In this document: positions 4,046 to 27,128 of the stretch, in pieces | Layout of the letters: every line of letters begins with the position of its first letter | How positions within the stretch are numbered: position 1 is the first letter of the stretch | NCBI GenBank assembly: GCA_001004345.1 | Contig: LCQW01000007.1 | Coordinates: 1 to 33,562, forward strand | DNA from: Candidatus Kaiserbacteria bacterium GW2011_GWA2_52_12 | GTDB lineage: Bacteria > Patescibacteriota > Minisyncoccia > Phycocordibacterales > UBA2100 | Length of the DNA: 33,562 nt | Direction of reading: 5' to 3' | Position numbers and translations under genes: made by a program | Notes under the pieces: generated by a model | What the model saw: only the letters and a program-made list of their open reading frames with translations | The model's database searches: none | Told to the model about the DNA's origin: nothing

Positions 4046-5317
4046 TTATAATACCATGCGCAAAAAATGCAATGCGGCCGTTCCTGTTGAAAGATTTTTT
4101 GCAAAAGATATAAGGTTATTTTTTGTTGTATCGCGACCGAGCGAAATGCGCAGTGTATTTTTTGCTCTCCACTCTACTATTGGAGAACGCGCCGCCTTCG
4201 CCCCATCCTTCGCGTAAAGCTTCGGAGGGCACAGCGAGGCTTCGGCGAGCCGAAGAACGACGTGAGATGATGCATCACCCTCATTGCATGCACTCTTTGT
4301 CGAGAGTGCAAAGCCCTGCCTGCCGGCAGGCAGGCTGGCGTGATCGAGTGCGAGGACAAGATATTCGGCATTGATATTCGGAATGGAGATGTTGAGCATG
4401 TGTGGGAGGGAATGTTTTAAGTCAGTGTTGAGAATCACGCCGGGGATGTGCGCGACGACCTGCGCAGCGAGGTCGTCGCGCATCTTCTGCAAACGCTTCG
4501 CTTCTGTTTCCCGCTCGCCAGCGATGATGTCGAACGCCGTTGCAAATCCCGCAGCAAGTGCCGGCTCCTCGGTTCCCGAACGCAATCCCCGCTCCTGCCC
4601 GCCGCCGAGGGTGACCGGCGCAAGTGAAACCCTATTATTGATATACAAGGCACCGACGCCGCGCGGACCGTAGAGTTTACCGGAACCGAGCGAGAAAAGG
4701 TCAACGCCCAGCGTGTGCACTTGTGGTGAAAGGTAGAGTGGCGCTTGACCCGCATCGGAATGAAAAATTACTTGTGACCGTTCATGTATTGTTTTTGCAA
4801 TTTCTTTGAGCGGCTGCACTATTCCTATCTCGTTATTGCCCCACCCCACAGATACGAACACTGTCTCGGGTCGAAGCGCTTGAGAAACGATTTCCGGTTT
4901 GATGATGCCGCTGGCGTCGGGATCGATATGTGTCACCTTTCCGCCCAGTCGCTCCACTTCAGCGAAACATTCGAGCACTGACGAATGTTCGATGGAGCCG
5001 ACGAGCCAGTGGGTATTCTTCAAGGCGTCGCCTTGGGGATTTTTTAAAGCGATGCCTTTTGCACATCCGAGGATCGCGAGATTGTTGGCTTCGGTAAGAC
5101 CTGATGTGAAGACTACTTCTCGCGCTTTGCACCCGAGCTGCATCGCCACTCGCTCACGCGACTTCTCAAGCAGTGCTTTTGCCGCCACGGCTTCCGTGTG
5201 TACCGCACCGGGGTTGCCGAATAGTGCGCTCGCGCGATTGACCGCCGCTTGTGCCTCGGGCAATACCGGCGTCGCGCTCGCATAGTCGAGATAGATTCGT
5301 GTATTTCGCCACCACAT
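4046..5317 (-). CDS. iscS: Cysteine desulfurase (NifS/IscS class V aminotransferase)
   Basis: This PLP enzyme removes sulfur from cysteine for Fe-S clusters and tRNA thiolation. The 423-residue product shows the N-terminal YLDYASATP, the PLP region HSDAGQ (about 186-191), the Schiff-base lysine in SGKLYGPRGVGA (K214), the RSGTE motif (about 246-250) and the catalytic loop with SACNEGDAS (C344). The residue before the PLP lysine is Gly where IscS has His. The protein carries extra segments relative to typical IscS. LKNPQGDALK (91-100) is encoded by a 27-bp palindrome that also flanks a transposase at 26-27 kb. LPAGRQG (329-335) is encoded by a 20-bp GC palindrome just before the catalytic loop. 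A stretch at about 362-382 follows the loop. All are in frame. AGGA lies 7 nt before the ATG. No iscU or other Fe-S gene is adjacent. Confidence 0.9.
   Translation of the reverse strand: MWWRNTRIYLDYASATPVLPEAQAAVNRASALFGNPGAVHTEAVAAKALLEKSRERVAMQLGCKAREVVFTSGLTEANNLAILGCAKGIALKNPQGDALKNTHWLVGSIEHSSVLECFAEVERLGGKVTHIDPDASGIIKPEIVSQALRPETVFVSVGWGNNEIGIVQPLKEIAKTIHERSQVIFHSDAGQAPLYLSPQVHTLGVDLFSLGSGKLYGPRGVGALYINNRVSLAPVTLGGGQERGLRSGTEEPALAAGFATAFDIIAGERETEAKRLQKMRDDLAAQVVAHIPGVILNTDLKHSLPHMLNISIPNINAEYLVLALDHASLPAGRQGFALSTKSACNEGDASSHVVLRLAEASLCPPKLYAKDGAKAARSPIVEWRAKNTLRISLGRDTTKNNLISFAKNLSTGTAALHFLRMVL
4315..4334. repeat. 20-bp perfect GC palindrome inside iscS
   Basis: Arm CCTGCCTGCC followed directly by its reverse complement, a perfect 10+10 palindrome. 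It encodes the in-frame LPAGRQG insertion just ahead of the IscS catalytic cysteine loop. Related, less perfect versions occur at 20822-20841 and 13591-13608. I recall that peptides of the PAGRQ type recur in CPR proteins, which would fit a dispersed element. Confidence 0.75.
5015..5041 (+). repeat. REP-like 27-bp palindrome (family 2, copy A) inside iscS
   Basis: Left arm ATTCTTCAAGGCG, central T, right arm CGCCTTGGGGATT. The right arm is identical to those at 26392-26404 and 27116-27128, which frame the RAYT gene at 26.4-27.1 kb. Two left-arm changes are C to T and keep T-G pairs on the plus strand; one position mismatches. The copy is translated in frame (on the minus strand) as KNPQGDAL. 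Confidence 0.85.
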
Positions 5318-21174: not shown

Positions 21175-21199
21175 ATGATTGATTTCGTAAATCAATCAT
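21175..21199 (+). repeat. REP-like 25-bp palindrome (family 1), left copy
   Basis: Perfect arms ATGATTGATTT and AAATCAATCAT around CGT. It ends 13 nt before the start codon of the transposase. Confidence 0.9.
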
Positions 21200-21212: not shown

Positions 21213-21875
21213 ATGGAATTATTTCATGTGCTGAATCGCGGAGTAGAAAAAAGGGATCTTTTCACCAACACCAGCAACTATGCACGTTTTGTTCACGATA
21301 TGTATGAATTCAATGACTCGTCTCCCGCACTGAATGCCGGAAGGGCATTTGATACCAATATGATTGATTTACGAAATCAATCATTGGGTAGAGAACAGAT
21401 CGTAGATATTCACGGTTGGTGTTTAATGAAAAACCATTATCACCTCCTCCTTTCGGAGTGTACAGATGGCGGCATAACTAAGTTTCTGCGGAAATTGAAC
21501 GTTGGCTATGCAAATTATTTCAACGATAAATACAAGCGAAGCGGAGCGCTCTTTCAAGGCCGAACAAAGAAAATACTCATCGGCTCGGACGCGCACTTCT
21601 TGCATATATTGCATTACATTCACCTCAACCCTCTCGATTATGTAAAAGGTGCACAAGGATGGCGCGCGGGACATATTTCAAACTCGGCAGCAGCTCGCAA
21701 ACAACTCGAGGAGTATCGTTGGAGCAGTTATGCGGATTATTGCGGTAGAAAAAATTTTCCTTCCATAGTAACTACTGATTTTATGCGCGAGTCACTCGGG
21801 AATATTGAAAAACAAACTCTCGCATATCTTAACGAAATCGACGTTACTGATATTCATTCATTTCTTCTCGAATGA
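21213..21875 (+). CDS. REP-associated tyrosine transposase (RAYT, Y1_Tnp), family 1
   Basis: Y1 HUH transposases of the IS200/RAYT group cut single-stranded hairpin DNA through one Tyr. The 220-residue product has the N-terminal FHVLNRGVEKRDLF (4-17), the HUH motif KNHYHLLLSE (H75, H77) with GGITKFLRKLNVGYANYFN after it, and the catalytic Tyr in HYIHLNPLDYV (Y135). All residues needed for activity seem present. The gene is framed by two identical 25-bp palindromes, and its stop codon lies in the right one. A third copy in opposite orientation lies inside the gene and encodes MIDLRNQSL (50-58). No other cargo is present. Confidence 0.92.
   Translation: MELFHVLNRGVEKRDLFTNTSNYARFVHDMYEFNDSSPALNAGRAFDTNMIDLRNQSLGREQIVDIHGWCLMKNHYHLLLSECTDGGITKFLRKLNVGYANYFNDKYKRSGALFQGRTKKILIGSDAHFLHILHYIHLNPLDYVKGAQGWRAGHISNSAAARKQLEEYRWSSYADYCGRKNFPSIVTTDFMRESLGNIEKQTLAYLNEIDVTDIHSFLLE
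21360..21384 (-). repeat. REP-like palindrome (family 1), copy inside the transposase gene
   Basis: The same arms around ACG, so inverted relative to the flanking copies. It is read through in frame as part of the linker ahead of the HUH domain. Confidence 0.9.
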
Positions 21876-26017: not shown

Positions 26018-26118
26018 ACTAAGTAAGTATACCCGTTTACGGCGGACTTGACAGTATGACATCATGGTAATAGGTTGGTGACAGTCAACACCAGCGGAAG
26101 GAATGTTATTTAAAATCC

Positions 26119-26162
26119 AAAAGTGGACTGTTTTGAGGGGTTTTAAACTTTAAAAGTGGACT
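26119..26162 (+). repeat. Two 11-bp direct repeats at an IS end
   Basis: AAAAGTGGACT at 26119-26129 and again at 26152-26162, 33 bp apart. Short direct repeats upstream of a transposase fragment look like the transposase-binding end of an insertion sequence. Confidence 0.5.
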
Positions 26163-26218: not shown

Positions 26219-26386
26219 ATGTCTCAAGTCCACAAGCGTCTCAGTGACGCGCAGATTATTACCATCCTCACGCAGTACGACGAAAAAAAGATCCCTGCCG
26301 CAGATGCACAAGCGAAGCTCGGCGTGAAGCGCAGCAAATTCTTCCGCCTGCTGAAGGAGTTTCAAATCCCCAAGGCGAATCCCTAA
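26219..26386 (+). pseudogene. Truncated transposase/integrase, N-terminal HTH only
   Basis: A 55-residue frame starting MSQVHKRLSDAQIITIL contains a helix-turn-helix (IPAADAQAKLGVKRSKFFRLLKEF, about 25-48) of the kind found at the N-terminus of rve-type IS transposases. It then runs straight into the palindrome of the neighbouring RAYT element, which supplies the last residues (IPKANP) and the stop. No catalytic DDE domain follows on either side of the RAYT. I infer an insertion sequence cut short by arrival of the RAYT element or by an accompanying deletion. Confidence 0.6.
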
Positions 26387-26404
26387 GGCGTCGCCTTGGG
26401 GATT
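26365..26404 (+). repeat. REP-like palindrome (family 2, copy B) with a duplicated left arm
   Basis: The full hairpin is AATCCCTAAGGCG, T, CGCCTTGGGGATT (26378-26404). It is preceded directly by an extra left arm AATCCCCAAGGCG (26365-26377). It ends 3 nt before the stop codon of the second RAYT gene. Confidence 0.9.
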
Positions 26405-26407
26405 TTC

Positions 26408-27079
26408 TTAACCGAGATTCTCGTAATATTGCAGAGCATCAAATAGTAGTTCTCTTGGTGGGGCCATTTCGCTCCGCAATACACCCATCCAACAAGGATC
26501 GAGTATCGCTTTTTCAGGACGAGCGCTCCCAAAATAATCTGGATAACTTGAGTATGGGTAAGCTATCAAATTCTTCTCAAGGTTTTTTATCGACCTAACC
26601 ACGCCCTGCTTCCAACCTCTCTCGAAAATTTCGACCGAGTTCAAATGTATGTACTGGGCGACGTGTCTAAAATACTTATCATCATGCACGTGACGAGACC
26701 GAAACGGCTTCAAAAACAGATTTCCTATCCGCTCATGTTTGATATTAAAATACATCGTGTAGCTCGTTCCGAGTTTATGCATAAATTTCGTAATACCACC
26801 TTCAGAGTGTTCCCTTAATAGCAGGTGAAAGTGGTTCGGCATCAAACAATACGCCCCTATTTCCACCAACAGTTCGCCCCGCGCACGTTCAAAAAATCTG
26901 TCGTGCTCGAAATGTTTAATGTTAAATCTGTTGGTAGATTCCGCATTATTACTCAAGTATATAGTCTGGACGAACCGACGATAATCATTGTCCGATTCAA
27001 AAACCGTACGTTTATCTACTCCGCGGTTGTAACAGTGATACCATTCGTCAACGGCAAACTGTTCCCTTCGGTAAGCCAT
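26408..27079 (-). CDS. REP-associated tyrosine transposase (RAYT, Y1_Tnp), family 2
   Basis: From MAYRREQFAV (27079) the product is 223 residues. It has YHCYNRGVDKRTVF (14-27), the HUH motif CLMPNHFHLLLRE (H83, H85), GGITKFMHKLGTSYTMYFN, and the catalytic Tyr in AQYIHLNSVEI (Y143). All catalytic features are intact. It is clearly homologous to the family-1 RAYT at 21.2 kb, but the two differ widely in sequence and are flanked by unrelated palindromes, so they are separate lineages. A GTG start 18 nt upstream is an alternative. The C-terminal part (about 160-223) lacks features I can assign. Confidence 0.92.
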   Translation of the reverse strand: MAYRREQFAVDEWYHCYNRGVDKRTVFESDNDYRRFVQTIYLSNNAESTNRFNIKHFEHDRFFERARGELLVEIGAYCLMPNHFHLLLREHSEGGITKFMHKLGTSYTMYFNIKHERIGNLFLKPFRSRHVHDDKYFRHVAQYIHLNSVEIFERGWKQGVVRSIKNLEKNLIAYPYSSYPDYFGSARPEKAILDPCWMGVLRSEMAPPRELLFDALQYYENLG

Positions 27080-27101
27080 GCAAGAACATACTATCACAAA
27101 A

Positions 27102-27128
27102 AATCCTCAAGGCATCGCCTTGGGGATT
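27102..27128 (+). repeat. REP-like palindrome (family 2, copy C)
   Basis: AATCCTCAAGGCA, T, CGCCTTGGGGATT. The right arm is identical to copies A and B. The left arm has one C-to-T change that keeps a T-G pair and one mismatch at the inner end. It lies 22 nt upstream of the RAYT start codon. Confidence 0.88.

Follow-up and report, generated by a model that had tools for sequence, protein, structure and literature searches.

Introduction

It has been described in several bacteria that Y1 transposases are accompanied by families of short palindromic repeats. In REPtrons, a TnpA-REP/RAYT enzyme of class 2 TnpA-Y1 type is found together with REP sequences (PMC6006769, PMC2817692). In TIRtrons (TIRYT), a RAYT-like gene is flanked by untagged, sometimes self-complementary repeats that also form modest dispersed families, as exemplified by the self-complementary TIR family of Stenotrophomonas maltophilia ORF 1152 (PMC3733652). 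Palindromes can also reside in frame within conserved genes. Such Rickettsia palindromic elements (RPEs) have been known since 2000, and a review published in 2007 noted that there was no experimental support for any mobiliser (PMC2229807). Intragenic CGTC/GTAG REPs were described in Rickettsia conorii and Opitutus terrae, and no transposase gene was linked with coding repeats of the CGTC type (PMC3733652).

Here we analyse a stretch of 33,562 nucleotides (the window) from a Candidatus Kaiserbacteria genome, in which a candidate mobilising enzyme sits beside protein-coding palindromes resembling those of Rickettsia. The locus is probably a minimal unit of the REPtron/TIRtron kind, made up of a transposase gene and its palindromes, with movement driven by the RAYT. 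In the openly accessible literature we found no prior report of palindromic or intragenic repeats in Patescibacteria, nor of the combination of untagged RAYT-end palindromes located in frame in core genes in this group.

The transposase gene and its palindromes

The features of the window referred to below are the following.

4046-5317, minus strand: cysteine desulfurase (NifS/IscS-like) gene hosting the third palindrome copy (alignment of 30 orthologous loci)
5015-5041, no strand assigned: third, dispersed palindrome copy, in frame within the cysteine desulfurase gene
26365-26377, no strand assigned: extra tandem left arm AATCCCCAAGGCG, a half palindrome that ends at the apex
26378-26404, no strand assigned: 27-bp palindrome with 1-nt apex, 3' flank of the transposase gene (direct reading)
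26408-27097, minus strand: predicted RAYT/TnpA-REP-type Y1 (HUH) transposase gene (Pfam Y1_Tnp, NCBIfam, AF2 model)
27102-27128, no strand assigned: 27-bp palindrome with 1-nt apex, 5' flank of the transposase gene (direct reading)

Reading of the sequence bore out the preliminary description in that a Y1 transposase gene lies between two 27-bp palindromes, AATCCCTAAGGCG-T-CGCCTTGGGGATT at 26378-26404 and AATCCTCAAGGCA-T-CGCCTTGGGGATT at 27102-27128, whose right arms are identical. The left arms had been said to vary mostly by C-to-T changes that keep T-G pairs; this is correct but incomplete, as A.C and T.T mismatches also occur. Relative to perfect pairing, the left arm has one T.G in the 26378-26404 copy, T.G plus A.C in the 27102-27128 copy, and two T.G plus one T.T in the third copy (5015-5041), which lies inside a gene and was absent from the earlier account. 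The duplicated left arm is real: AATCCCCAAGGCG complements the right arm exactly and abuts the 26378-26404 copy, so its assignment to "copy B" is wrong if the second-listed palindrome was meant.

Judged from its sequence and modelled structure, the gene between the palindromes is predicted to encode a RAYT/TnpA-REP-type (class 2 TnpA-Y1) transposase with intact catalytic motifs. Its Pfam Y1_Tnp match (32.2 bits) is above the cut-off, and its sole NCBIfam match, REP_Tyr_transpos (NF047646), is below it (39.6 bits, cut-off 80). Residues H89/H91 (HUH), Y149 and N153 are invariant among 31 sequences; in the class 2 motif Y-x3-N(P) the window transposase has NS and most relatives have NP. The AlphaFold2 model has a pLDDT of 88.6, and its best PDB match, the only one with E < 0.001, is 4er8, the E. 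coli TnpA-REP with a REP hairpin (E 1.6e-6). The pLDDT is low over residues 1-10 when the ORF is read from its GTG, and the true start is probably the ATG at 27077-27079.

Palindrome pairs accompany most related transposases

RAYT homologues were found in 45 of 60 relatives, the named ones being Candidatus Kaiserbacteria and other Paceibacteria (Patescibacteria/CPR), and seven are present in the source genome alone. Most of these genomes are draft metagenome assemblies, with one closed chromosome (G028). A matched palindrome pair was detected within 300 bp of 73 of the 102 RAYTs, compared with 1 of 600 same-locus control windows; around the other 29 no matched pair was found within this distance. 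Most Kaiserbacteria loci share the layout arm-AGG-N5-CCT-arm with a one-base apex. The arms are unlike between RAYTs and alike within each pair, and palindrome similarity drops as transposase distance grows (Spearman -0.31; none of 999 permutations, which did not include the species tree, was as low). When the 14 bases to either side of the left and right palindromes of 51 RAYTs were compared, neither GTAG/CGTC nor any position above 0.37 bits was seen.

In 52 genomes of the genus we counted 328 copies of the core RAGGYGWCRCCTY (reversed control, 27), with a maximum of 43 in one genome and 15 in the source genome (reversed control, 0). Outside the genus 89 copies were counted in 146 genomes, 26 of them from two genomes, against 49 in the control. 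Since the latter count is near background, this core variant belongs mainly to the genus. In one genome (G084) the reversed control pattern was present eight times and the core pattern not at all, possibly owing to an unrelated palindromic repeat.

For the source genome (924,614 bp in 38 contigs, 91% complete), genome-wide statements are based on pattern searches and fetched sequence stretches. The exact 13-bp right arm occurs four times (reversed control, 0), always on the contig of the window, and the 27-mer has three sites when up to three mismatches are allowed. The window contains ten 27-nt palindromes with at least 11 of 13 Watson-Crick pairs, whereas Markov shuffles contained 0.6 (maximum 3). 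The preliminary description had envisaged matching palindromes elsewhere, and would have regarded a palindrome missing from the rest of the genome and from RAYT-carrying relatives as a local duplication; copies are present in the source genome, and related pairs in most of the relatives that carry a RAYT. As the genome has only three strong copies with exactly this arm type, and these share a contig, one could think of a local duplication or of chance palindromes that form no family, but the genus-wide count of the core, the pairs around most RAYTs and the Markov shuffles reduce the probability of this explanation to almost nothing.

The other RAYTs of the source genome are 36-55% identical to that of the window, and thus there is no sign of recent multiplication of the whole unit. 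The window contains a further RAYT gene (21213-21875, plus strand), which is divergent and is associated with a different palindrome type (centre TTCGTAA/TTACGAA). This gene is flanked by copies centred at 21187 and 21884, and its own coding sequence contains a third copy in frame, at 21372 (peptide NMIDLRNQS).

Dispersed palindromes and duplicated arms

A palindrome was regarded as dispersed if no RAYT lay within 600 bp of it, and agreement at six or more of seven arm positions counted as a match. RAYT ends were characterised in about 20 genomes, which contain 93 dispersed palindromes. Thirty-seven of these matched a RAYT end of their own genome, whereas shuffling of the genome labels gave an expectation of 8.5 and reached 37 once in 2000 shuffles; like our other label and permutation tests, this one ignores the species tree and could be inflated by species-level relatedness. 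The remaining 56 did not match a characterised RAYT of their own genome. Aligned copies of five families are conserved across the palindrome (about 21-27 bp), at whose ends conservation stops abruptly, and no GTAG/CGTC-like tag was found in the 14 flanking positions on either side. From these comparisons we infer that the dispersed palindromes belong to the resident transposases.

Two sets of apparently orthologous palindromes (G071:C40 and G024:C24; G071:C37, G024:C36 and G013:C57) differ by paired changes in the arms that keep the palindrome, which suggests concerted change or replacement.

Extra arms were searched for in the 16 bases adjacent to each of 283 palindromes. A score of at least 9 was obtained at 17 palindromes (0.10 expected) and of at least 8 at 27 (0.65 expected). 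Nearly all strong extra arms are direct repeats of the neighbouring arm and end at or just past the apex. The duplicated arm in the window is one instance of this recurrent arrangement, whose cause might, speculatively, be cutting, repair or template slippage at the hairpin tip.

Palindromes inside coding sequences

The third copy in the window is read through as the peptide NPQGDALKN in the cysteine desulfurase frame. By a conservative codon test, which overlooks genuine coding copies, for example that in trmD of the source genome, 37 of 111 dispersed palindromes were called coding, in all three frames (17/12/8), against 55% of random positions, indicating that genes are only partly avoided. 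The in-frame inserts are open frames read from the sequence. Host genes, named from NCBIfam matches, PDB alignments or reading of the sequences, include trmD, tsaD, guaA, uvrA, dnaE, ligA, alaS, lysS, purD, murD and atpD.

The palindromes might terminate transcription or act as mRNA hairpins in the regulation of the transposase gene, and their position near gene ends and their capacity to form RNA hairpins would agree with this. However, copies with the same arms lie inside unrelated coding genes in all three frames, many copies are dispersed independently of gene ends, and the arms vary among RAYTs yet agree within each pair, which is not required of a terminator; we therefore consider a terminator role very improbable.

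The clearest insertion is in trmD, where a stretch of 39 nt in 23 of 30 orthologues corresponds to 66 nt in the source genome; the difference is exactly one 27-bp palindrome, in frame and without target duplication. The same two trmD loops carry different palindromes in six or more other genomes. One tsaD loop carries palindromes in many genomes. For the nine of these whose RAYT ends are known, the agreement between the arms and the resident RAYT exceeds that of all 5000 label shuffles: the match is unambiguous in G061, G016, G014 and G071, tied on the core in G000 and missing in four. The source-genome tsaD (L097) has a related but weaker palindrome. The net length change of the loop is only +2 residues, so replacement or trimming must also occur. 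A second tsaD loop (L097, L106, L425, L433, L434) holds palindromes of 28-36 nt, which form a longer, ACATTC...GAATGT-like family with the peptide HSxILxNxR.

In alignments with solved structures, the inserts fall at variable positions and bring a net gain of 0 to 8 residues. Clean insertion at every site was ruled out by net gains of 0 to +9 residues in the PDB, tsaD, NifS and ArgS alignments; since the gain at coding sites is often below 27 bp, clean insertion explains trmD but not every site. The only clean gains are the 27 bp in trmD and an unrelated 21-bp palindrome in NifS. The latter, a GCCTGCCTGCCGGCAGGCAGG-type palindrome at 4313-4336 of the window, adds SLPAGRQ in frame immediately ahead of the cysteine desulfurase's STKSAC motif; 29 orthologues are without it, and it is unrelated to the RAYT palindromes.

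A model for palindrome movement

In the proposed mechanism the transposase would recognize its own palindrome as a single-strand hairpin, following the logic of TnpA-REP and IS200, cut at the ends of the approximately 27-nt unit and join it at new sites without target duplication. An insertion within a gene would be tolerated if the unit length preserves the reading frame and the site lies in a permissive surface loop, which would gain about 7-13 residues. Transposase and palindrome would evolve together, so that each genome would have one to a few private families. Speculatively, the tandem half-palindromes ending at the apex could be left over from cutting or repair of the hairpin tip.

Palindromes could also have spread by other routes, such as replication template switching, strand exchange or gene conversion between palindromes, with the transposase genes merely adjoining or exploiting them. 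TnpA-REP and IS200 enzymes require a guide tetranucleotide, and the lack of a guide tag at the palindrome flanks would fit such routes, as would the recurrent half-palindromes ending at the apex, the paired changes in both arms at orthologous sites (G071, G024) and the exchange of palindromes at near-constant length in the tsaD loop. On the other hand, palindrome pairs flank RAYTs specifically (73/102 versus 1/600) and diverge together with them, and trmD shows a clean 27-bp gain, leaving these routes unlikely though worth weighing against RAYT-driven movement.

A tentative and rather doubtful variant of RAYT-driven movement is that the transposase exchanges palindromes in place at fixed permissive sites such as the tsaD and trmD loops, the resident palindrome being replaced by that of the active RAYT family and half-palindromes ending at the hairpin tip representing intermediates or scars. 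If this were true, a selfish single-strand-DNA system would be repeatedly rewriting protein loops.

Relationship to known systems

The locus resembles REPtrons in having a Y1 HUH class 2 enzyme (Y-x3-N) with 4er8 as best fold match, in the cognate palindromes that flank the gene and are also present elsewhere, and in the co-divergence of palindrome and enzyme. It differs in that the Kaiserbacteria palindromes have no 5' GT[AG]G tag, are near-perfect and without bulge, number tens or fewer per genome and are often inside genes, and in that the window transposase scores below the NCBIfam REP_Tyr_transpos cut-off. Classical REPs exceed 100 copies, whereas the arm type of the window has about 3-4 copies in its genome. 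Given the missing GTAG/CGTC tag, the few copies and the location not confined to extragenic DNA, the term "REP" in its strict sense does not fit. Thus, of the REP/RAYT pair originally proposed for this CPR-like genome, the RAYT-type transposase with its own palindrome family stands, but the family is not a classical REP family.

The closest described anatomy is that of the untagged, self-complementary TIRtron repeats: by the definition of PMC3733652, the locus likewise has a RAYT-like gene, untagged self-complementary flanking repeats and a dispersed family. TIRtrons are from other phyla, the Kaiserbacteria palindromes have the centre AGG-N5-CCT, and the intragenic insertion described in PMC3733652 concerns GTAG/CGTC REPs, not TIR families. 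The closest described behaviour is that of the Rickettsia coding palindromes and the Opitutus intragenic REPs, which are also in-frame palindromic units in conserved genes, including those of UvrA, DnaE, DNA ligase and tRNA enzymes. By unit length and tag these are distinct, RPEs being 105-146 bp or CGTC-tagged and the Kaiserbacteria units about 27 bp and untagged. CGTC repeats lack an associated transposase gene, whereas the Kaiserbacteria genomes encode a cognate transposase whose gene is framed by the same palindromes. With IS200/IS605 elements the unit shares the Y1 transposase fold and the absence of target duplication. Those elements have subterminal asymmetric hairpins with guide sequences; the Kaiserbacteria unit has identical full palindromes at both ends and no tnpB, and the RAYT copies of the source genome are divergent.

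Because palindromes in essential genes share arms with the ends of resident transposase genes, the question of what moves coding palindromes becomes directly testable, and is approachable with one enzyme and short oligonucleotides. In the streamlined Patescibacteria genomes a RAYT-type system appears to extend surface loops of core enzymes by short peptides, and such palindromes matter for the annotation and modelling of core proteins in this group.

Neighbourhood of the element

The window RAYT lies between a metallo-beta-lactamase-fold gene and an S1-domain gene, which are divergent and conserved in the genus. A RAYT between them was seen in no relative in which both genes were found, and hence its presence at this site is specific to this lineage. 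In seven relatives (L386, L388, L399, L407, L410, L412, L413) a RAYT is located just downstream of the S1-domain gene, i.e. on its other side, and in three genomes (G003, G018, G008) a RAYT abuts trmD. RAYTs beside the S1-domain gene or trmD may mark insertion hot spots or old shared insertions.

A 55-aa ORF at 26219-26386 (plus strand), which ends in the extra palindrome arm, was considered as a part of the element and rejected, having no relative in the fetched loci and no Pfam or NCBIfam match. It looks like a truncated helix-turn-helix gene or an insertion-sequence remnant, and AAAAGTGGACT repeats are present at 26109-26162.
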